Positions 6,116-33,567 of a stretch of 34,998 bases of DNA are shown one piece after another; position 1 is the stretch's first letter, and each line of letters opens with the position of its first letter. The notes beneath the pieces are model-generated. The model was not told the DNA's origin. It searched no databases and saw nothing but the letters and a program-made list of their open reading frames with translations. The stretch is taken from positions 1 through 34,998 of IMG/VR virus record IMGVR_UViG_3300042988_001196; one strand, given 5' to 3'. A program made the position numbers and the translations under genes. The DNA is from a virus.

Positions 6116-7839
6116 TTTATTTGTGTATAAGTTCCATCACTATTTTTTGTCCAGACAGAACCATCTGCTTGTAATTGAGCATTAATATCCATTGGATCAC
6201 CACCTTTTATAATATAATCAAGTTTTGCATAATTATTAATTTTATCTAATTCCTTTCTCATATTTTCCTCTGTTGTATTGTATCCGATAACCTGGCCATT
6301 ACTATCTTTAATTGCCCATGTACCAATTTTTGTCGCAGCAGAAGCCAAAACATTTAATTCCTGATCAGACAAAGCGCCAAAGGTTGCACCACGAGATTTT
6401 GCTTGTATTAAAGTATCAAGATTTAGATTAGATCTAAGTTGTTCAACTCCAGCAATAAAGTTTTGATATTCTCCAGTAAGTCTTTGTTTTGCACCAATTA
6501 GAGCTTGTGGAGCACCAACTCCTGTCAATAATTTACCAGTATTTCTCATAAATCCAGGCTGTGATCTTGATAGTGGTGATGTACCAACCGCACTTGACGC
6601 CATATTTTGTGATAATTGAGTTATGTTTTCAATATTATCTCGTGCTTGTGCTTGTGATAATAAATTAGTACCACTGGCAGTTGCACCTACATCTGTACCT
6701 GTTGGAGTTATCCATCTTCCAGTTGTAGAATCCCATTGCATTTCAACACCATTAATTTTTTGTATCGTAGGCGCTTTACCACTTGTTCCCAAAGCACCAA
6801 TTTGTCCTAATTTATATCTATCTTCAATACTTATTCCATAATTTCCTGCCAATTTTATTTTATCTTCTGTTGTTGTTGCCCTTGAAACAGCGTCTTTTAT
6901 TGACTGTGGAGCACCATTTAGTGCCATATTCTTTTGCAACTCTATATTGGTATCATTTAATTGTTTTAATTCATTCTCTTTTCTTTGGATAGCAAATTCT
7001 CTATCTTTTGCCATTAATTCGAATTGTCTTTGTTCGGCTTTTGTGAAAAATTCCTTATTATCATTATAAGTTGCCAAAAATCTATCGTAGTCCATTTTAT
7101 CTTGTTCCATTTGAACAGCTACTTTTCTATCGGCAATTGATTTAGCTGAATCATAATCACCTTGTGCCATTAATTTGTCTATATATAAATCTGCTTTTGC
7201 TGTTGTAGCATTTCTATTAATGGCATTAATAGAATCTTGCATTCCTGATGTCGTACCTCTAAATGTACTTCTTAATTGCTTAATTTGTTCATTAGTACTT
7301 ATATCAATAGCATTAATTTGATTATTTATATTCCTTAACTTTCTCGAAGTTTCATCAACTGTTGTTCCAAGTAAATTTCTTTCAGTATAAGCAGTATCGG
7401 TTAAGGCAGTTTCGCCTTTTCTCATACCAAGAAAATCAAGTAAATTTTTCTTTGATTTTTCTGTCTCTGTTTGCCTTTTTTGCGTTTCTAATTTTTGCTG
7501 TTTCAACAATTCATCTTCTGCATTCATTTGTTGAACAGAAGAATTTGATAGACTTGTTATTTCTGATCCAAGACCAATTGCTGTCGTTGGTGTATTTGCT
7601 ACTGGCAATGTCATCTTCTCTGCTGTAGTTCCAAGAGTTTGTGTTGAAATAGTATCTGGTACTACTGGTTTAGGAGTTGTAGCAACTGTAGTTGTTTCTG
7701 GTGTTGCCACTGGAGCAGGAGTAGTGACAGTTTCTACTGGTTGAGATGATGTTTCATTATTTTGATTCAATAGTGAGCTTGAAATACTTGGTGTTGTACT
7801 CGATATATTGAATTGCAAATTATCTTTAGTATTAAACAT
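6112..7839 (-). CDS. Putative internal virion/ejection protein, coiled coil
   Basis: 575 residues. The N-terminal 120 residues are low-complexity Thr/Ser/Pro/Val; residues of about 120-330 are a long charged helical region (KQQKLETQKRQTETEKSKKN, then many Glu/Lys/Gln heptads) predicted as coiled coil; the C-terminus is mixed, with a QTNxNLDTLIQAKSRG-like helical part. No enzymatic motif. Its place after the nozzle candidate and before another large helical protein fits ejection proteins. An extended -10 box (TGGTATAAT) lies 8 nt before its ATG and overlaps the end of the upstream gene, so an internal leaderless transcript is possible. Confidence 0.5.
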   Translation of the reverse strand: MFNTKDNLQFNISSTTPSISSSLLNQNNETSSQPVETVTTPAPVATPETTTVATTPKPVVPDTISTQTLGTTAEKMTLPVANTPTTAIGLGSEITSLSNSSVQQMNAEDELLKQQKLETQKRQTETEKSKKNLLDFLGMRKGETALTDTAYTERNLLGTTVDETSRKLRNINNQINAIDISTNEQIKQLRSTFRGTTSGMQDSINAINRNATTAKADLYIDKLMAQGDYDSAKSIADRKVAVQMEQDKMDYDRFLATYNDNKEFFTKAEQRQFELMAKDREFAIQRKENELKQLNDTNIELQKNMALNGAPQSIKDAVSRATTTEDKIKLAGNYGISIEDRYKLGQIGALGTSGKAPTIQKINGVEMQWDSTTGRWITPTGTDVGATASGTNLLSQAQARDNIENITQLSQNMASSAVGTSPLSRSQPGFMRNTGKLLTGVGAPQALIGAKQRLTGEYQNFIAGVEQLRSNLNLDTLIQAKSRGATFGALSDQELNVLASAATKIGTWAIKDSNGQVIGYNTTEENMRKELDKINNYAKLDYIIKGGDPMDINAQLQADGSVWTKNSDGTYTQIK

Positions 7840-7848
7840 TTGATTATA

Positions 7849-9678
7849 TTATACCATTAATTCTTTATTTTTATTAATTAAAGCGAGTTCAAATAACTCA
7901 TCATCACCAGTAAATTCCATATAACATTTTATTTGTATTCTTTCAGAAGATAATCCTACTGGGATTATCGAAGATTCATTTGTCTGATTAGAAACATCAG
8001 ACAATTTTATCCATTTCTGAACCCTTACCTTTGATGTACCTGTTGTTATTCCATCAACAGCAGAATCAATGTCAACAATATATGTATTGCTATCACCCTC
8101 TTGTAAAGTAGTAATATGTGCACATTTCCCTGAACCCAAACCAGATAATATTTCTATCTCATCACCTATAGAATATGCTGACAAATCAGTAGAGGTCGTA
8201 AATGATGTGTTATTAATCCAATTTGCTGTCATTTCTGTTGAGTCTGTTTCTCTGATCCTAATTTTTATCGTAATTTTATCAGTTGCTGACAATAACTGTT
8301 TGTATTTCAAAACTATTTTATTCCAAGTATCTTTGACTTGTTCAGAATTAATAAATTGAGTGACAAAATATCCGACTTTTTTACCCTCTGGCACAAAACT
8401 ATTGTATGGAAATGGGGAAGCCAAAAATATTCCATTAGCTGTCGTTGTAGCATTTTTATAATATGAAGCACCGCATAAAATTTCACTTCTTCCGTTTGAT
8501 GATGTTGTCTGAATATTTCCTACTTTGAGAGCGCCGACACTCGCCAACCTATTTTGGCCATAATCTGTTAGTGTAGATGATGTAATACCTAAAAATGAAA
8601 GCGGATGTTTATGATATAAACCATGGGTATCAGAATATGCCCAAATACCAGACGGTATTTGTTCTATTACAGTTGCCGATGAATCTGACATCGCATTATT
8701 AATCAACATCAATATTTCTCCGTCTTTACTTATATCAATCCCATTTGGGTGAATAAAACGAGAATCAGTACCTAGTGTTGAGGTAGCATTATTTAATAAA
8801 TATTTATCAATAGGAAACGAATTTATTTTTTGAAAAGAATAACCAGTAAACTTTAATATATTTCCATTGCTATCAATAGCATACGGAACATCATTTTTTA
8901 CTATTAAAGCCAAAACTCCATGAGCGTCTACCTTATATTCATTACTTATAGTACTTGATTGACCATCCCATTCGAGTATAGAAGCTCTCATTGATGAATC
9001 ATCAGAACCTGAAGCTATATTTGATGGGTGTAATGTGGCAATCCAAATAGCTCTACTAGATGAGGCAATTGTTGTGATGATACCAAGAGAAGAACCGATA
9101 TCGAGATAACCATCTGGACTGGCGTCTGTTGTTAAACCACCTGACCACCCAGCTTCTGCTGAACGAATTTTTGTAGAATTATCAACAACATATAATTTAT
9201 CAAACTTCTTAAAGTATGCCATTTTGTGTAATCCCTCAGCACTTAATGTCACACCTCTATCTGTCCATGCTCCAGTTCCAGAACCGTTTGCTACCTTTGT
9301 ATATATCTTATTACTCTTGGACACCACCAGTTCACCATTAAATTGGATCATATCAGAATATGCTACCGATAGACCTGTTGGAACTCCTGCTGATAAGGTG
9401 TCTTCTGTAAATGATGAAGTAAAATTATTTTGACCATTCTTAAATACTTTTGTTCCAGCAAGACAAAACATTCTTAAATCAAAGTTAGCAATAGCATAAG
9501 GCAATCCAAGATTTGTTTCAGAATCTGAACTTGTATTTATTTTCATCTTTGAACCAAGTCTTATAGCACCTAAATTGCTGTTCAAGTCAATTCCAAAAGA
9601 TGACCATAAATCACCAAGAAAGTTTCCTGAATTTAATTGAGTCAATGTTTTTGTTTGTCTATTTGGATATGTAATCAT
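7849..9678 (-). CDS. Putative tail nozzle/stopper protein, beta-rich
   Basis: 609 residues, almost entirely beta-type sequence with recurring short blocks such as YFKKFDKLYVVDN, RAIWIATLHP and NDVPYAIDSNGNILKF, the look of a beta-propeller. In T7 the tail nozzle gp12 contains a beta-propeller and follows the adaptor gp11; here the gene lies three genes after the adaptor-like protein and before the internal-virion candidates. A jelly-roll-like C-terminus follows. It overlaps the 107-residue gene by 4 nt. Function is inferred from order and fold impression. Confidence 0.5.
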   Translation of the reverse strand: MITYPNRQTKTLTQLNSGNFLGDLWSSFGIDLNSNLGAIRLGSKMKINTSSDSETNLGLPYAIANFDLRMFCLAGTKVFKNGQNNFTSSFTEDTLSAGVPTGLSVAYSDMIQFNGELVVSKSNKIYTKVANGSGTGAWTDRGVTLSAEGLHKMAYFKKFDKLYVVDNSTKIRSAEAGWSGGLTTDASPDGYLDIGSSLGIITTIASSSRAIWIATLHPSNIASGSDDSSMRASILEWDGQSSTISNEYKVDAHGVLALIVKNDVPYAIDSNGNILKFTGYSFQKINSFPIDKYLLNNATSTLGTDSRFIHPNGIDISKDGEILMLINNAMSDSSATVIEQIPSGIWAYSDTHGLYHKHPLSFLGITSSTLTDYGQNRLASVGALKVGNIQTTSSNGRSEILCGASYYKNATTTANGIFLASPFPYNSFVPEGKKVGYFVTQFINSEQVKDTWNKIVLKYKQLLSATDKITIKIRIRETDSTEMTANWINNTSFTTSTDLSAYSIGDEIEILSGLGSGKCAHITTLQEGDSNTYIVDIDSAVDGITTGTSKVRVQKWIKLSDVSNQTNESSIIPVGLSSERIQIKCYMEFTGDDELFELALINKNKELMV

Positions 9679-22133: not shown

Positions 22134-22141
22134 CTAGTACC

Positions 22142-22150
22142 TGTGGATAA
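22142..22150 (-). promoter_or_regulatory. Perfect DnaA box
   Basis: TGTGGATAA on the top strand, i.e. TTATCCACA leftward, positioned just upstream of the promoter at 22105-22133. Same word at five other sites in the window. Confidence 0.65.
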
Positions 22151-22154
22151 CTTT

Positions 22155-22739
22155 TTACCTGTAGTTCACAGGTACTTGTTCAACAAAATAGCGAACACCC
22201 TTAATCTCAATGTTATCTTTCATTGCCTTAGTGATCATCTGTTCGTTAGCCATATGGTATTCAATAGGGAGTTCCTTAATATCAATAACCTCAAATCTCT
22301 TGACCTCTCTAAACTGGACTAACCCACTATCAGTCGCTACTTCTTTTTCAACCTCTGATAAGTTTTCAATCTTTTTGACAGCAGTATTTATTTTTATTTT
22401 TCCCTCAATTAACTTCTTAGCAATCTTTTCTTCTTCTTCCTTTCTAATCCTAACCTGTTCAGTTTGGTAAACAGTCATCTTCAACCTAAGTGAAGAGATA
22501 GCATTTTCATATACCTCTTCAACTGGTTTGAATAATGCTCTGGCACTCTTTAGAGCATTGTTGATAGGTTTGGTAATCTCTTCCTTTTTCTCCTTAACCT
22601 TGTCCGCATATTTATTCATCTCTGACAACATCGCAGTAGCCATTTTAAGATCATCATTTGACTTGATACTAAATGACCCGACAGCAACAGCTATCGACTC
22701 AATTTTTTCTTTCAAAGGAACTAGTGATTTTTCGTTCAT
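22155..22739 (-). CDS. Coiled-coil phage early protein
   Basis: 194 residues; a long helical central part (YADKVKEKKEEITKPIN, ARALFKPVEEVYENAI, EEEEKIAKKLIEGK) and a small C-terminal domain (RFEVIDIKELPIEYHMAN, then GVRYFVEQVPV). This architecture is common in phage early regions, often next to single-strand annealing or replication genes, but the biochemical role is not established to my knowledge. It is the first gene leftward of the origin region and is preceded by an extended -10 promoter and a DnaA box. Confidence 0.6.
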   Translation of the reverse strand: MNEKSLVPLKEKIESIAVAVGSFSIKSNDDLKMATAMLSEMNKYADKVKEKKEEITKPINNALKSARALFKPVEEVYENAISSLRLKMTVYQTEQVRIRKEEEEKIAKKLIEGKIKINTAVKKIENLSEVEKEVATDSGLVQFREVKRFEVIDIKELPIEYHMANEQMITKAMKDNIEIKGVRYFVEQVPVNYR

Positions 22740-22812: not shown

Positions 22813-22821
22813 TGTGGATAA
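22813..22821 (-). promoter_or_regulatory. Perfect DnaA box
   Basis: TTATCCACA leftward, with the same flanks (AGTTATCCACAGG) as the box at 22142, and next to the leftward early promoter. Confidence 0.65.
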
Positions 22822-22883
22822 CTCGATAGCTACCATGATCAGGACAAAGTCATCGACGAAAGTTAGCCATATTTTAGCGGTCA

Positions 22884-23180
22884 GAAAATGCAGACAGCAA
22901 GCGTTGCTGTCTGCATTTTCAAACTATGGCTCAACATAGCCCTACTTTTGCAGACAGCAAAAATCATTTTTCGGGGGGAAAAAAAATTACTGGCACGAGA
23001 GAAGTGTATTATATATAGGGATATATACATATACCTATATATATACTTTTACCTATTAAATATATCTGTCTATCTGTCTGCATTTGATTTTATCCTTATT
23101 CTTAGCCCTACTTTTGCAGACAGCAATTTGAAAACATTGCTGTCTGCACTCAAAAATTGCTGTCTGCTGTCTGCATTTTC
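22884..23180. repeat. Origin module 1: GCAGACAGCAA iterons around an AT-palindromic core
   Basis: A perfect 17-bp inverted repeat with 3-nt loop (22884-22900, 22904-22920), a 23-bp direct repeat (22938-22960 and 23104-23126) and further copies of TTGCTGTCTGC at 23137-23147, 23157-23167 and, overlapping, 23166-23174, plus a partial copy at 23074-23081. The centre (23006-23060) is A/T-only palindromic sequence with TATATATAGG/CCTATATATA arms. Copies on the left point rightward and most copies on the right point leftward. Confidence 0.75.
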
Positions 23181-23323
23181 TCCCCTGGTTATTGATCGTT
23201 TTTTGAATAAAAATGTCAAAAAAAGTAACTATAAACAAAAAAATCCATCTCATCGGTACACAGATAAAGACAGATGTTTTTGTTGTCGGCATAATTAAAT
23301 TCAATTAATTTATGCTTAAAAAA

Positions 23324-23353
23324 ATTATAACAAAGTTATCCACATTTTGACAA
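23324..23353 (-). promoter_or_regulatory. Leftward promoter inside the origin, DnaA box in the spacer
   Basis: TTGTCA (23348-23353), 18-bp spacer and TATAAT (23324-23329) preceded by TGT. The DnaA box 23336-23344 lies between -35 and -10, so DnaA binding would block it. The transcript would run through module 1 without a credible gene: a possible origin RNA or primer. Confidence 0.45.
23336..23344 (+). promoter_or_regulatory. Perfect DnaA box
   Basis: TTATCCACA on the top strand, between the two repeat modules and inside the spacer of a leftward promoter. Confidence 0.65.
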
Positions 23354-23403
23354 CAAGAAAATGAAAAAAACAATTATATTTTAAAAAATCAGTATAACCA
23401 ACA

Positions 23404-23835
23404 TATAAACAGCATATGACCAGCATGACCAGCATGACCAGCATATGACCAGCATGTTTTTCGAGTGCTGGTGTCAAACCAAGGCTACACATAGCCATAT
23501 TTTCGTTATGACCAGCATTTTTCAAAAAAATCGACCTAAAAAAGAAAAAACCCCATAGTATACTATACTATATAGTACCTATATTATATTATATATATAC
23601 TTTACCCCTATAAAAATACTGGTTATGCTGGTCATAGCGTTTTTACGGCTCTGTGTAGCCCCAGTTTGACACCAGCATTTTTAAAAATGCTGGTCATAAT
23701 TCTCAATATAACCATTTTAATCATTTTATGGCTCTGTGTAGCCCCAGTTTGACACCAGCACTGTTTTTTTTAATTTTATCAATCTATTTTATGGCTCTGT
23801 GTAGCCCCAGTTTGACACCAGCATTTTGCTGGTCA
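23404..23835. repeat. Origin module 2: ATGACCAGCAT iterons and 31-bp stem-loop repeats around an AT core
   Basis: Four head-to-tail ATGACCAGCAT words in 23416-23455, a fifth at 23508-23518, then inverted copies at 23625-23635 and 23687-23697 and TGCTGGTCA at 23827-23835. A 31-bp repeat beginning GGCTCTGTGTAGCC and ending GACACCAGCA occurs at 23647-23677, 23730-23760 and 23793-23823, with a diverged inverted copy at 23466-23498. A perfect 24-bp palindrome lies at 23671-23694. The AT-palindromic core is at 23556-23602. Repeats left and right of the core mostly face opposite ways, as in module 1. Confidence 0.8.
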
Positions 23836-23846
23836 AATGTTTTTTT

Positions 23847-23905
23847 GTTTTCACATGAAACATATTTTAAAAAAGATATTAATGTTTTCACATGAAACAT
23901 ATTTT
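23847..23905. repeat. Pair of 22-bp direct repeats, operator-like
   Basis: Identical 22-mers at 23847-23868 and 23884-23905, centre to centre 37 bp, each containing the dyad TTTCAcaTGAAA. Located upstream of the primase-polymerase promoter, so they could be binding sites for a regulator or initiator. Confidence 0.6.
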
Positions 23906-23919
23906 TTTAAAAAAAACAA

Positions 23920-23964
23920 AAATACCACAACTTATCCAGCACGCTGGCAAGTAGTGGTCTTTTT
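23920..23964. terminator. Terminator-like imperfect hairpin, T-runs on both sides
   Basis: ACCAC...ACTT..CCAGC (23924-23940) pairs with GCTGG.AAGT.GTGGT (23943-23958) with two small internal mismatches, followed by CTTTTT rightward and ATTTTT leftward. It would insulate the primase-polymerase promoter from origin transcripts. Confidence 0.5.
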
Positions 23965-24012
23965 GTTACAAAACATAATTATTAAAATTATGCTCTTATA
24001 TTTTAGCATACG

Positions 24013-24021
24013 TTATCCACA
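24013..24021 (+). promoter_or_regulatory. Perfect DnaA box
   Basis: TTATCCACA ending 1 bp before the -35 of the primase-polymerase promoter. Confidence 0.65.
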
Positions 24022-24022
24022 T

Positions 24023-24050
24023 TTGCACTCGCTCTGATCCAAGGTATAAT
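24023..24050 (+). promoter_or_regulatory. Promoter of the replication operon
   Basis: TTGCAC (24023-24028), 16-bp spacer, TATAAT (24045-24050); ATG at 24081. A DnaA box abuts the -35, so replication genes may respond to host DnaA. Confidence 0.65.
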
Positions 24051-24080
24051 TGTTTCATTACAAAACAATAATAATTATTT

Positions 24081-24959
24081 ATGCAACATTTTATAAAAAG
24101 ATACATTGATAGAGGATACAGTTTTTTTAATACAGCTTCTAGAGAAAAAAAGATTTTAACAGTTTGGAAAGACTTTCAAAAAAGGAAACCAACTGAAAAA
24201 GAGATAACAGCATGGTTACGTTCACCTATACAAAATTACGCAATTGTTTGTGGTGAGATATCTAATCTTGTTGTCTTTGACGTTGATACCAAAAACGGAG
24301 GAGATCCAACTCCTTTTTTAAATAGAGGTTTACATGAAATAAGAACACCCTCTGGTGGCTATCATTTCTACACTCTTTATGATCCGCTACTAAAATCAAC
24401 TAAACATAAGAAAAATCTTCACAAGGGAATATTGCATGCTGTTGATGTCCAATCAAATGGTTCAATAGTTTTTTGTCCACCAACAATTTTTAGCAATGGT
24501 AAATACATCATTGAGAACGATGTTCCTATAACCAAATTACCTGATGACCTTTTAATTAAAGTCCTTGAAGAATTACAGCCAGAAAAAGAATCAACAGATT
24601 ATACCCCATATAAAGGACATTCATCTCCTCTACTTGGAAGACCAGGAGATGTCTTTAATGCTTTTGCTACGTGGGAAGATGTCCTTATACCTCATGGTTG
24701 GAAAAAGATAGGTGACGGTCGTACAGGTGTCCAATACTGGAAACGCCCTGGAAAAACAGATGATGGCGTTTCAGCTTCAACAAATTATAAAGGATATGAT
24801 TTATTTTTTTGTTTCACCACTTCTGTACCAGAAATTACTCCTCTTAAAGGATATACAAAATTTTCATTACTAACTGCCTTAAAATATAATGGAGATTTTT
24901 CTAGAGCTTCAAAAGAATTAGTTATTGAAAATTATAAACTATTACACAATCGAATATGA
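24081..24959 (+). CDS. Bifunctional primase-polymerase (AEP family)
   Basis: 292 residues. AEP motifs in order: VFDVDTKNGG with metal-binding D67 and D69; SGGYHFY with H95; AVDVQSNGSIVF with D122. A small C-terminal domain follows (RPGDVFNAFATWEDVLIPHGW, then FSLLTALKYNGDFSRASKEL), typical of phage/plasmid prim-pols partnered with D5-like helicases. It makes primers and may extend DNA. First gene of the rightward operon, coupled to the helicase by ATGA. No Shine-Dalgarno. Confidence 0.87.
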   Translation: MQHFIKRYIDRGYSFFNTASREKKILTVWKDFQKRKPTEKEITAWLRSPIQNYAIVCGEISNLVVFDVDTKNGGDPTPFLNRGLHEIRTPSGGYHFYTLYDPLLKSTKHKKNLHKGILHAVDVQSNGSIVFCPPTIFSNGKYIIENDVPITKLPDDLLIKVLEELQPEKESTDYTPYKGHSSPLLGRPGDVFNAFATWEDVLIPHGWKKIGDGRTGVQYWKRPGKTDDGVSASTNYKGYDLFFCFTTSVPEITPLKGYTKFSLLTALKYNGDFSRASKELVIENYKLLHNRI

Positions 24960-26545
24960 ATAAGACAAAAAAGCCGGCTTCTAAGTTCTACACAGCGGTT
25001 ACTTATGCCTTGGCAAGAGGATTGCCCGTTGAATCTATAACAGATTTTGCAAAAGATTTTGATATTTCTGATGAAAAAATAAATGAATTTATAAAAAATA
25101 AGTCTTTATCTAGAGCAATTTCTGGTGCGGTTGTTGCCAGTAAAGATGAAAAAGAGATGATTTATAATATGCTTGATCAGAAGTTTATCGATCATCATTC
25201 AAATATAGTTATCTTTAGGAGAGGAGAAAATACCGATTTCTATGAATACATAAATGGTGTCTATCGTATGATTACAAGGCAGGAAATGTACGATTATATT
25301 GACTCCCTGATGTCAAAATTCTCATTATTCGATTATCGAACATCGTCACGAACTATTAATGACACAATTAATCGTATAGGTTCGTTACTTTCAAGGACTA
25401 AAGATAGATTTTTTACAGATACGATGATTAATTCACAAAAATGGTTTTTAAATTTAAAAAATGGTTTATTAGATTTAAATAATTTTGAATTAAAACCGCA
25501 CGAAAAATCATATTTTTCGACAGTTCAAGTCCCTTTTGTGTATGATCCTACTCAAAATTGTCCAGAATTTTTAAAATTTATTGAAAAAATTTCTGGTAAT
25601 AATGAATCTACTGCCCTTATGTTACAAGAAATGTACGGTTATTGTCTTATGGATGGTAATCCTAAGCATAAAGTTTTTTATCTTTATGGTGATACTGCAA
25701 GAAACGGAAAATCGACAACCGCTAAAATACTTTGTGGCTTAATAGGCTGGGGTAATATATCAACACTTTCACTTTTGCAAATAGCTGGAGAAAATTCATC
25801 AATTCTTACTTCAATTGTAGGAAAACAATTAAATTTCTCTGATGAAATTTCATCAAAGTTTATAGAATCATCAAGACTAACAGCTATGTCTGCTGAGGGT
25901 ATTATTGAAATAAATCCAAAATATAAACATAGTTATTTATACCAAGTAAAAGCTAAATTTATAATTGCCTGTAATGATTTGCCACGTTTTAAAGATTCAC
26001 AGGGCATGAAACACCGAATGATACCAATACCTTTTCCATACCAGTTAAGAGAAGATGAACGAATAGAAAAGTATGATGAAATTTTGTTAGCCAAGGAGGG
26101 ATCTGGAATATTAAATTGGGCTATTAAAGGTGCTATTATGATAAGAAATAATAAGGTCTTTACTACTAATGAAGAAAGCCAAGAAGATATGTTGGATAAT
26201 TTATATCAAAGTAATTCAACTTACGCTTATCTTGAAAATGAATTTTTATTCTCAGATGAACATGATACAGAATATTCGGTAATGGACTTATATGGAGAAA
26301 AGGGAGATAAAGATAGTCAAGCCACTGGTTTTCGCTTATTCTGTCTCCGTAATGGTATTGGAGAAACATCGTTATTTAATTTTCAAAGAGAATTAAAGCG
26401 ATTTGCAAATGAAACTAAGAAAATTAAACAAGTTAGAAAATTGGTAAAAAATAAATATAAACGTGTATACGTTGGCTTGAAGTTAAGAAAGGAGGATGAA
26501 GATGAGGAAGTTCTGAATAATTTTGTTAATTCAATTGATATATGA
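24956..26545 (+). CDS. SF3 replicative helicase (D5/P4-like)
   Basis: 529 residues. Walker A GDTARNGKST (about 244-253), Walker B LNFSDEI (about 291-297) and sensor IIACNDLPR (about 335-343) mark a superfamily 3 ATPase; the block before it (SYFSTVQVPFVYDPTQNCPEF) is the usual D5_N linker. The C-terminus is a winged-helix-like region rich in Lys. It unwinds DNA at the fork or origin with the prim-pol; together they could serve as the iteron-binding initiator, but that is inference. Confidence 0.88.
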   Translation: MNKTKKPASKFYTAVTYALARGLPVESITDFAKDFDISDEKINEFIKNKSLSRAISGAVVASKDEKEMIYNMLDQKFIDHHSNIVIFRRGENTDFYEYINGVYRMITRQEMYDYIDSLMSKFSLFDYRTSSRTINDTINRIGSLLSRTKDRFFTDTMINSQKWFLNLKNGLLDLNNFELKPHEKSYFSTVQVPFVYDPTQNCPEFLKFIEKISGNNESTALMLQEMYGYCLMDGNPKHKVFYLYGDTARNGKSTTAKILCGLIGWGNISTLSLLQIAGENSSILTSIVGKQLNFSDEISSKFIESSRLTAMSAEGIIEINPKYKHSYLYQVKAKFIIACNDLPRFKDSQGMKHRMIPIPFPYQLREDERIEKYDEILLAKEGSGILNWAIKGAIMIRNNKVFTTNEESQEDMLDNLYQSNSTYAYLENEFLFSDEHDTEYSVMDLYGEKGDKDSQATGFRLFCLRNGIGETSLFNFQRELKRFANETKKIKQVRKLVKNKYKRVYVGLKLRKEDEDEEVLNNFVNSIDI

Positions 26546-29493: not shown

Positions 29494-29649
29494 ATGAAAG
29501 TAAACGAAAAAACGATTAGAAAAGTTATGAGTGAGCTAGGCAAGCGATCATGGGAGAAAAAACCTGACCACATGAAAACTCGTGAATATTTTGTGGCTAT
29601 AAATAAGAAAAGTATTGAGGCAAGGAGGAAGAATAAAGAGAATAAATAG
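29494..29649 (+). CDS. Small basic helical protein, 51 residues
   Basis: ATG 29494 to TAG 29649: MKVNEKTIRKVMSELGKRSW, then a Lys/Arg-rich helix ending ARRKNKENK. The usual A/T leader (AATATTATG) precedes it. Resembles bacterial and phage mini-proteins of the type SELGRxGGxxR and may bind nucleic acid; function unknown. A DnaA box starts 1 nt after its stop codon. Confidence 0.55.
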   Translation: MKVNEKTIRKVMSELGKRSWEKKPDHMKTREYFVAINKKSIEARRKNKENK

Positions 29650-29658
29650 TTATCCACA
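29650..29658 (+). promoter_or_regulatory. Perfect DnaA box
   Basis: TTATCCACA directly after the small basic gene and upstream of the promoter at 29671-29699, with the same AGTTATCCACAGG flanks as boxes 22142 and 22813. Confidence 0.65.
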
Positions 29659-29670
29659 GGTATATTTGCC

Positions 29671-30180: not shown

Positions 30181-31719
30181 ATGACTATTAAAAGAACAAA
30201 AACTAGACTTGAAGGTGGTATCACTCCAGAGGAAAAAATAAAGTTAGATGAACACGCTAAAAAGTGGATAAAGATTATTGAAAGAACTGACCCTATTGAT
30301 AAAGTCAAAATCACAAAAGCTATTAAGGAACTCTATAAGGTTTCAGGATTAAAAGAACCGAGGGTCGTCATTGTTGATAGTCCTTATATAATGGCACTGG
30401 CAGGTGGGCTAGCTTCAGCAGTCTGGTATTTAAGGAAAAATAATAATATAAAATCAGTATCAGATGCTACCTATTCTGCTACCGATTCTGCTACCCGTTC
30501 TGCTACCTATTCTGCTACCTATTTTGCTACCAGTTCTGCTACCTATTCTGCTACCGATTCTGCTACCCGTTCTGCTACCAGTTCTGCTACCTATTTTGCT
30601 ACCCGTTCTGCTACCCGTTCTGCTACCGATTCTGCTACCGATTCTGCTACCGATTCTGCTACCCGTTCTGCTACCCGTTCTGCTACCGATTCTGCTACCC
30701 GTTCTGCTACCCGTTCTGCTACCCGTTCTGCTACCCGTTCTGCTACCGATTCTGCTACCCGTTCTGCTACCTATTCTGCTACCTATTTTGCTACCAGTTC
30801 TGCTACCTATTTTGCTACCGATTCTGCTACCCGTTCTGCTACCGATTCTGCTACCCGTTCTGCTACCGAGTTGGCTACCGATTCTGCTACCCGTTCTGCT
30901 ACCTATTCTGCTACCTATTCTGCTACCAACAAATCTATTAAAGAAAATTGGCTACTTCAGTTATGTGAAGAATTTGTTGGCAAAGAAAATGTTGCTTTCG
31001 CCCTCTCTTGTATAAAGAATTATAGAAATATGCTACAAAGCGGAAATATGTGGGGACAATATAATAGTTTTCTTACTGCCTTTCGTGATGTCCTCGGACT
31101 TGAATTGCCAGAATATGAGAAATTTAAAGCGTGGGAGGAGTGTGCCAAAGAGGGAGGTTATAGAATAATGCGCCCAGAATTCTGTATCGTTTCAAACTTT
31201 CCAAAATGGATAAAAAAAGACTCTCAAAACAGATCTCACTGCACCACAGGTTCTCAAATGGAATGGCGAGATGGTTTCGCTACCTATTACATTTCAGGTA
31301 TCAGATTTGAAAAGGAAATGTTCACAAAGCTCATCAATAAACAAATGTCTTTCCAAGAGATTTTGTCAATCGTAGATGTTGACCAGAGAAATCAGGCGAT
31401 GAGATTTGTTGGCGAGGGCGAGCGAGAAAAGTTCCTTGAACATGTAAAAGCTAAAGTCATTGATGAAAGAGTAAAAGAATCTATAAATGGCAACAAGGTA
31501 TTTTATAAACTATATGAGTTGCCCGCAGGTGAATTATTTAGTAAAGCGGTGAAAGCTATGTGGTATACATGTCCTAGCACTGGTATGAGCAACTTTTCAG
31601 GCGTGCCAGAGGATATGAAAACCGTAGCCGAAGCTATGGCATGGAAAGGTTCTAATGATGAAGTAAAGATTACCCCTAAAATGTGGGAGATGTGTATTCC
31701 TCTACAAGATGAAGCGTAA
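30181..31719 (+). CDS. DUF6745-like protein with a 39-unit SATX repeat insertion
   Basis: 512 residues. The N-terminus (GITPEEKIKLDEHAKKWIKI, then YKVSGLKEPRVVIVDSPY at about 57-73) and the C-terminal half (YRIMRPEFCIVSNFPKWIK, WRDGFATYYISGIRF) match the DUF6745 pattern as I remember it. Between them residues 95-250 are 39 tetrapeptides SATX with X nearly always D, R, Y or S, coded by a 12-bp repeat. Many relatives carry Ala/Ser-rich helical linkers with alternating R/D/Y/W at this place, but such a pure and long tract is exceptional. Function unknown; a helical spacer or interaction surface is likely. Confidence 0.65.
   Translation: MTIKRTKTRLEGGITPEEKIKLDEHAKKWIKIIERTDPIDKVKITKAIKELYKVSGLKEPRVVIVDSPYIMALAGGLASAVWYLRKNNNIKSVSDATYSATDSATRSATYSATYFATSSATYSATDSATRSATSSATYFATRSATRSATDSATDSATDSATRSATRSATDSATRSATRSATRSATRSATDSATRSATYSATYFATSSATYFATDSATRSATDSATRSATELATDSATRSATYSATYSATNKSIKENWLLQLCEEFVGKENVAFALSCIKNYRNMLQSGNMWGQYNSFLTAFRDVLGLELPEYEKFKAWEECAKEGGYRIMRPEFCIVSNFPKWIKKDSQNRSHCTTGSQMEWRDGFATYYISGIRFEKEMFTKLINKQMSFQEILSIVDVDQRNQAMRFVGEGEREKFLEHVKAKVIDERVKESINGNKVFYKLYELPAGELFSKAVKAMWYTCPSTGMSNFSGVPEDMKTVAEAMAWKGSNDEVKITPKMWEMCIPLQDEA
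30463..30930 (+). repeat. 12-bp tandem repeat tract, 39 units, in frame
   Basis: Unit TCTGCTACCNNN, where NNN is TAT, GAT, CGT or AGT in all but two units (GAG in unit 34, AAC in unit 39). The first codon is TTT in four units (6, 12, 28, 30). Units 2-9 and 24-31 read the same at the variable position (D,R,Y,Y,S,Y,D,R), a sign of segmental duplication within the array. The 12-bp period keeps the frame when copies are gained or lost. Confidence 0.95.
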
Positions 31720-33494: not shown

Positions 33495-33497
33495 GAA

Positions 33498-33567
33498 CGA
33501 AGTGGAGTGATTTGAACACTCACCTTTTGTCTTATGCGGACAAGTGTGCTACTTACACCACACTTCG
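33498..33567 (-). tRNA. tRNA-like element, anticodon CAU, degenerate
   Basis: Leftward cloverleaf: perfect 7-bp acceptor (CGAAGTG/CACTTCG), 4-bp D-stem (GTGT/ACAC), 5-bp anticodon stem (TTGTC/GACAA) with loop CGCATAA (anticodon CAT at 33534-33536), 5-nt variable loop, and 5-bp T-stem (GAGTG/CACTC) around TTCAAAT. Stems are perfect, but position 33 is G instead of the universal U, the D-loop lacks GG, base 26 is missing, and no CCA is encoded. Either an aberrant phage tRNA-Met/Ile-like gene or a tRNA mimic. Confidence 0.6.

Follow-up and report, generated by a model that had tools for sequence, protein, structure and literature searches.

The window, that is, the whole 34,998-base stretch analyzed here, is an IMG/VR virus record in which two gene blocks diverge. 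To the left of about 22.7 kb, minus-strand genes encode a terminase large subunit, a protein weakly matching major head proteins, and tail and virion proteins, and to the right of 24.08 kb, plus-strand genes encode a Prim-Pol (PF09250, E 8e-17; 24081–24959), a D5-type SF3 helicase (D5_N, DUF5906; 24956–26545), an exonuclease-like protein and an SNF2-like helicase. Elsewhere in the window, a tRNA-Met gene lies on the minus strand (33497–33567), and an ORF at 30181–31719 contains about 36 tandem 12-base units that translate into SATxSAT repeats and, in a second frame, into LLPVLLPI repeats. The gap separating the two gene blocks holds two putative origin modules. Module 1, the distal one (22860–23185), features seven exact copies of the word GCAGACAGCA, boxes of the form TAGCCNNANTTT at 22864, 22937 and 23103, one GGCT-N6-AGCC and an AT-rich palindromic core (23008–23049) that ends in TATATATATACTTT. 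Module 2, proximal to the Prim-Pol gene (23400–23840), features the words ATGACCAGCA and GACACCAGCA, 12 copies of ACCAGCA, four GGCT-N6-AGCC, boxes at 23492, 23656, 23739 and 23802, and an AT-rich palindromic core of its own (23555–23603). Each module is followed on the plus strand by a right flank (23185–23403 and 23840–24080, respectively) containing the DnaA-box-like sequence TTATCCACA (at 23336 and 24013), and a further exact TTATCCACA lies on the minus strand to the left of module 1 (22813–22821). A promoter-like TTTGCA-17-TATAAT precedes prim-pol (24022–24050), but promoter-like matches in the region do not exceed chance (10 vs. 9.3 expected). The cumulative G-C minimum, a check of the kind named in an earlier note on this DNA, falls at 24,633, in agreement with an origin nearby, but it is confounded by the orientation of the gene blocks, which diverge at the modules, so that GC skew provides no independent proof of an origin.

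The recognition words are cleanly partitioned between the two modules. All seven exact copies of GCAGACAGCA in the window fall within 22890–23174, and the eight copies found at one mismatch (1.1 expected) were reached by none of 100 shuffles. Conversely, 12 of the 20 window copies of ACCAGCA lie within 23419–23833, against a whole-window expectation of 3.1 (0/100 shuffles). At one mismatch, the distribution between modules 1 and 2 is 7/0 for GCAGACAGCA and 0/8 for ATGACCAGCA, as the earlier note had anticipated in describing different recognition words, although the words have AGCA in common and usually GAC too. Its description of two paralogous modules likewise holds: they have matching AT cores and no word in common, their mutual alignment scores z = 13.5 relative to dinucleotide shuffles (0/200), the copy counts far exceed chance, and TATATATATACTTT is present in both cores, at 23036 and 23590. 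The box TAGCCNNANTTT occurs seven times (0.55 expected), always within the modules or at their edge. The two right flanks are also paralogous, matching each other at z 4.0 and the single right flank of a related locus, L131, at z 14.2 (flank 1) and z 15.1 (flank 2), and the left edge of module 1 displays ACGAAAGTTAGCCATATTTT, common to L131 at 20/20 positions. Because the right flanks are homologous, the cassette formed by iterons, AT core, iterons, flank and exact TTATCCACA is present twice in the window, upstream of a single Prim-Pol/SF3 helicase pair, and the repeated unit is hence larger than the modules first delimited. Exact TTATCCACA is itself overrepresented, with six copies in the window against 0.5 expected (0/100 shuffles), three of them around the modules; the other three lie at 22142, 27132 and 29650, and 22138–22157 and 29643–29662 form a 20-base inverted pair (95%). 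Two parS-like palindromes, TTTTCACATGAAAC, are found right of module 2 (23848–23861 and 23885–23898), with two mismatches to GTTTCACGTGAAAC, and a third, TTTCACGTGAAA, near 8433 in the origin region of the related locus L150; of the five sites of this kind across 1.56 Mb of loci, three are inside the window and L150 origin regions. The origin-region DNA yielded no match in searches against phages and plasmids or against Rfam.

Other aspects of the module design put forward in the earlier note require revision. Module 2 contains the stem-loop word GGCT-N6-AGCC four times, whereas module 1 contains it only once, its remaining boxes having no GGCT arm. The CCnA-TTTG said to follow it is not exact, since module 1 has CTACTTTT at this place and most of module 2 has CCAGTTTG, and iterons are found in mixed orientation on either side of the core, rather than oppositely oriented across it. 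We considered the stem-loop word as a universal element and rejected it, since the related locus L125 has TAGCCATATTTT without a GGCT arm. The constant element is the box and not the hairpin: 6.5 kb of origin DNA contain 14 copies of TAGCCATAT and 13 of TTAGCCATAT, against a single copy of each in 135 kb elsewhere.

Searches with the Prim-Pol and SF3 proteins provided twelve related loci (L122–L126, L131–L135, L149 and L150, where L125 and L126 are near-copies of each other, as are L133 and L135), and the region upstream of Prim-Pol was compared among them. At least one AT-cored repeat module lies upstream of Prim-Pol in all twelve, with weak repeats in L150. In the window, as in 12/12 loci, the modules are located 5′ of prim-pol. 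Nearly every lineage has its own iteron word: CTGTCAGCAT and CTCACCCAGC in L122 and L124, CCGACAGAT in L123, TCTGCCAGAT in L125, L126 and L132, ATCCCCTAT in L133 and L135, CTACACTAAA in L134, and ATGACAGAC in L149. In L131, five GCGGACAGCA and three GTGACCAGCA-type words surround one core, thereby placing both window words in one module that is served by one initiator. Similar layouts are seen in two more distant loci, MW202577.1, with ATGACGGATA beside an SF3-type helicase, and L047, where AGGTATGCA and ATGACGGAAG surround one AT core in an origin-like region (7000–7440); the second of these words resembles that of MW202577.1. A word-specific search for GCAGACAGCA returned six single matches, none of them in an origin, and the unit pattern GGCT-N6-AGCC...CAGCA returned 33 single matches in viral contigs, none in a comparable iteron cluster. 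No match was obtained when genome contigs were searched with the Prim-Pol.

The D5-type SF3 helicase is the probable initiator of this system. Its C-terminus (about residues 420–512; 26213–26491, plus strand) is predicted to fold as a winged helix, with pLDDT about 90 over residues 31–120 of the modelled domain, and constitutes a candidate iteron-binding domain. The structure search was limited to this C-terminal model because the full-length SF3 model is poor over the ATPase; by sequence, the SF3 profile matched one solved DNA primase (7ola). The matches of the winged-helix model include the DNA-binding domain of RFX at Z 8.6, the C-terminus of the African swine fever virus PrimPol at Z 7.8 and, at Z 6.6 with 83 aligned residues and rmsd 3.5, the origin-binding domain of phage P4 (1ka8). 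The last of these is a middling score for a common fold, and since such Z values are frequent for these folds, the match supports, but does not prove, origin binding; it is consistent with kinship to the P4 domain without proving it, and we infer from the model that the SF3 winged helix may bind the iterons. The window proteins scanned include one recognizable Prim-Pol and one recognizable SF3, in line with the single initiator-like pair initially reported, and the SF3 search revealed a single SF3 copy per record in nine relatives. These observations give no sign of the two initiator specificities that, according to the earlier note, one virus may carry.

The comparison of L122 and L124 bears on how two-module arrangements may arise. 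These loci are 99% identical across 8.7 kb on the left and again from the SF3 end onward, whereas identity in the Prim-Pol/SF3 block drops to 42–86% per 100 bases. Both loci contain module I (98%) and module II (95%), but in reverse order: reading towards prim-pol, I comes before II in L122 and after it in L124. Each record encodes one SF3. The distal modules have hardly changed, apart from an altered iteron in module II of L124. The left part of module II in L122 also contains a direct repeat of about 35 bases (TACCCATGTTGTGATGGGGTAAAGACC...; 9411–9445 and 9515–9551). The reversed order and the exchanged initiator block suggest that these phages swapped initiator genes and kept the old origin. 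Together with the paralogy of the window modules and the one-module relatives, the two-module L122 and L124 lend good support to the view of a duplicated origin whose copies carry different words. In L125 and L132, which have the same word, the SF3 C-terminal protein region is 99% identical, while Prim-Pol and the SF3 N-terminal part are 76–93% identical in DNA. In a comparison of nine replicons, the similarity of the words follows identity in the SF3 C-terminus most closely (Mantel rho 0.43, p 0.005), but the partial correlation on the ATPase is 0.30 (p 0.046; p 0.076 without L132), and this covariation is weak and suggestive only.

We interpret the two modules as paralogous origins of the iteron type, similar to those of PICIs and SaPIs, in a phage replicon with Prim-Pol and SF3 in which initiator genes were exchanged and the former origin was left as a distal second module, a reading that we hold to be somewhat more probable than not. 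In such an origin, the SF3 C-terminal winged helix would bind the iterons and load helicase rings onto the AT-rich core that they flank, which would be melted, and Prim-Pol would then prime synthesis. The TAGCCATAT box would represent the constant part of the origin, and the iteron word a fast-changing part that follows the SF3 C-terminus. A foreign cassette comprising origin, flank, primpol and SF3 would have recombined in beside the resident origin, replacing the resident initiator genes and leaving the old origin as the distal module, and L122 and L124 would be two outcomes of such a replacement with the roles reversed. Initiator-cassette replacement is the simplest history for a two-module phage, and the relatives suggest that each word belongs to a different initiator allele, with the distal module as the retained origin. 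Its position next to prim-pol makes module 2 the most likely cognate origin of the window, which would leave module 1 as the retained origin. Several observations weigh against this interpretation. Module 1 displays no decay, with 7/7 words exact, which is unexpected in an old relic; between the window modules, no remnant was found of a replaced prim-pol or of SF3; and no relative turned up that uses GCAGACAGCA as its cognate word.

Caution is called for above all by L131, which has both window words around one core and the SF3 C-terminus closest to that of the window (53%). Its mixed words imply that one initiator may read both window words through their common part, GAC(C)AGCA, in which case the modules would form a redundant or bipartite origin, derived by duplication of a mixed, L131-like ancestor and sorting of the words between the copies. 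The intactness of both window modules and the AGCA, usually with GAC, common to both words make this a serious rival, but the clean partition of the window words (7/0 and 0/8) fits it poorly, and common specificity does not predict that the order of modules in L122 and L124 should change with the initiator block; on balance, we consider it possible but distinctly less probable than initiator exchange. A further reading, which we regard as unlikely, is that the modules are tandem live origins of different specificity with one encoded initiator, such that populations flip between initiator alleles and the spare origin is driven by, or competes for, the initiator of a co-infecting relative. Less likely still is that the distal module is maintained by selection for co-infection itself, be it to replicate with a relative's initiator or to titrate it. 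L122 and L124 each hold, nearly intact, the module that adjoins the initiator of the other, and there is a published precedent for the exchange of replication modules under antagonism in PLE, where origin and RepA swap under the pressure of ICP1 Odn (PMC8263062); a recent scar, however, would look alike, and the distal module II of L124 already has a changed iteron.

Two other explanations do without origins or without a second module in any one genome. The repeats might instead act as operators of the divergent operons or as a partition region that controls them, as their location between the gene blocks and the parS-like palindromes (two right of module 2, one in the L150 origin region) would allow. 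Yet iterons on either side of an AT core by a Prim-Pol/SF3 pair constitute a known origin layout, exact TTATCCACA boxes stand on both sides of the modules, and no ParB-like gene was recognized among the window proteins scanned. We deem this very improbable, and the partition role raised in the earlier note finds little support beyond the two palindromes right of module 2. Finally, the relatives are metagenomic contigs from mixed populations, and the tandem modules could in principle be an assembly chimera of two strains. The two-module arrangement is seen, however, in three contigs (the window, L122 and L124), and because the window right flanks have clearly diverged there is little common sequence to misjoin, making a chimera the least credible of the explanations considered.

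The arrangement in the window has partial parallels in several known systems. The alpha protein of phage P4 has primase and SF3 helicase activities and acts on two iteron-bearing cis regions, ori and crr, that use one common word and lie kilobases apart. The window resembles P4 in its primase and SF3 helicase and its two iteron regions, and its predicted winged helix has a middling match to the P4 origin-binding domain (1ka8), but its modules are adjacent, each has its own AT core, and their words differ. In Sulfolobus, the chromosome has multiple origins, each with its own initiator; the window similarly shows more than one putative origin of different recognition per replicon, but a single visible initiator pair. 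In PICI origins, an AT region is flanked by iterons on either side, a layout described as common to PICIs but to "no other known bacterial replicon" (PMC6092414), and the C-termini of SaPI Rep and SCC Cch2 bind iterons (PMC7581432). Both window modules likewise have two iteron sets flanking an AT-rich core, linked to a primase and an initiator helicase, with words that differ among elements (PMC6092414, PMC7581432), and the C-terminal DNA-binding domain published for SaPI Rep is predicted here by fold only. On the other hand, the PICI/SaPI origin is immediately 3′ of rep and not 5′ of prim-pol, PICIs are satellites that do not have the capsid and tail genes indicated in the window, and the window adds two tandem modules with different words, the constant TAGCCATAT box and DnaA-like boxes. 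In PLE, as described in the part of the source drawn upon, antagonism by ICP1 Odn can drive swaps of replication modules, so that the initiator DNA-binding domain and the origin change together, as would be the case here, but the initiator is of the RepA_N type and that part describes no retained second origin (PMC8263062). pRN1 and BIP-1 also encode Prim-Pol, SF3 and winged-helix initiators, but their origin is one large stem-loop without iterons (PMC4234260).

The survival of a replicon requires that origin and initiator change together, and the window, L122 and L124 would capture the step at which two origins occupy one genome. Two-origin genomes thus make testable both how specificity can change without loss of viability and whether a spare origin is used in phage competition. 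The comparison also extends the PICI-type origin layout to phages that have packaging genes of their own, and tells apart the constant box from the variable word in these origins. In terms of genome context, terL relatives of the window mostly have other replication modules, with an SF3-family match in only 3 of the 22 virus records searched; in the set L041–L100, closely related terminase and capsid genes are accompanied by different replication regions, and the other 19 of these 22 records are without an SF3-family match. Against genome contigs, terL produced mostly distant matches in gut-type MAGs, together with one match at 72% in a MAG (bacterium isolate nzgw467).
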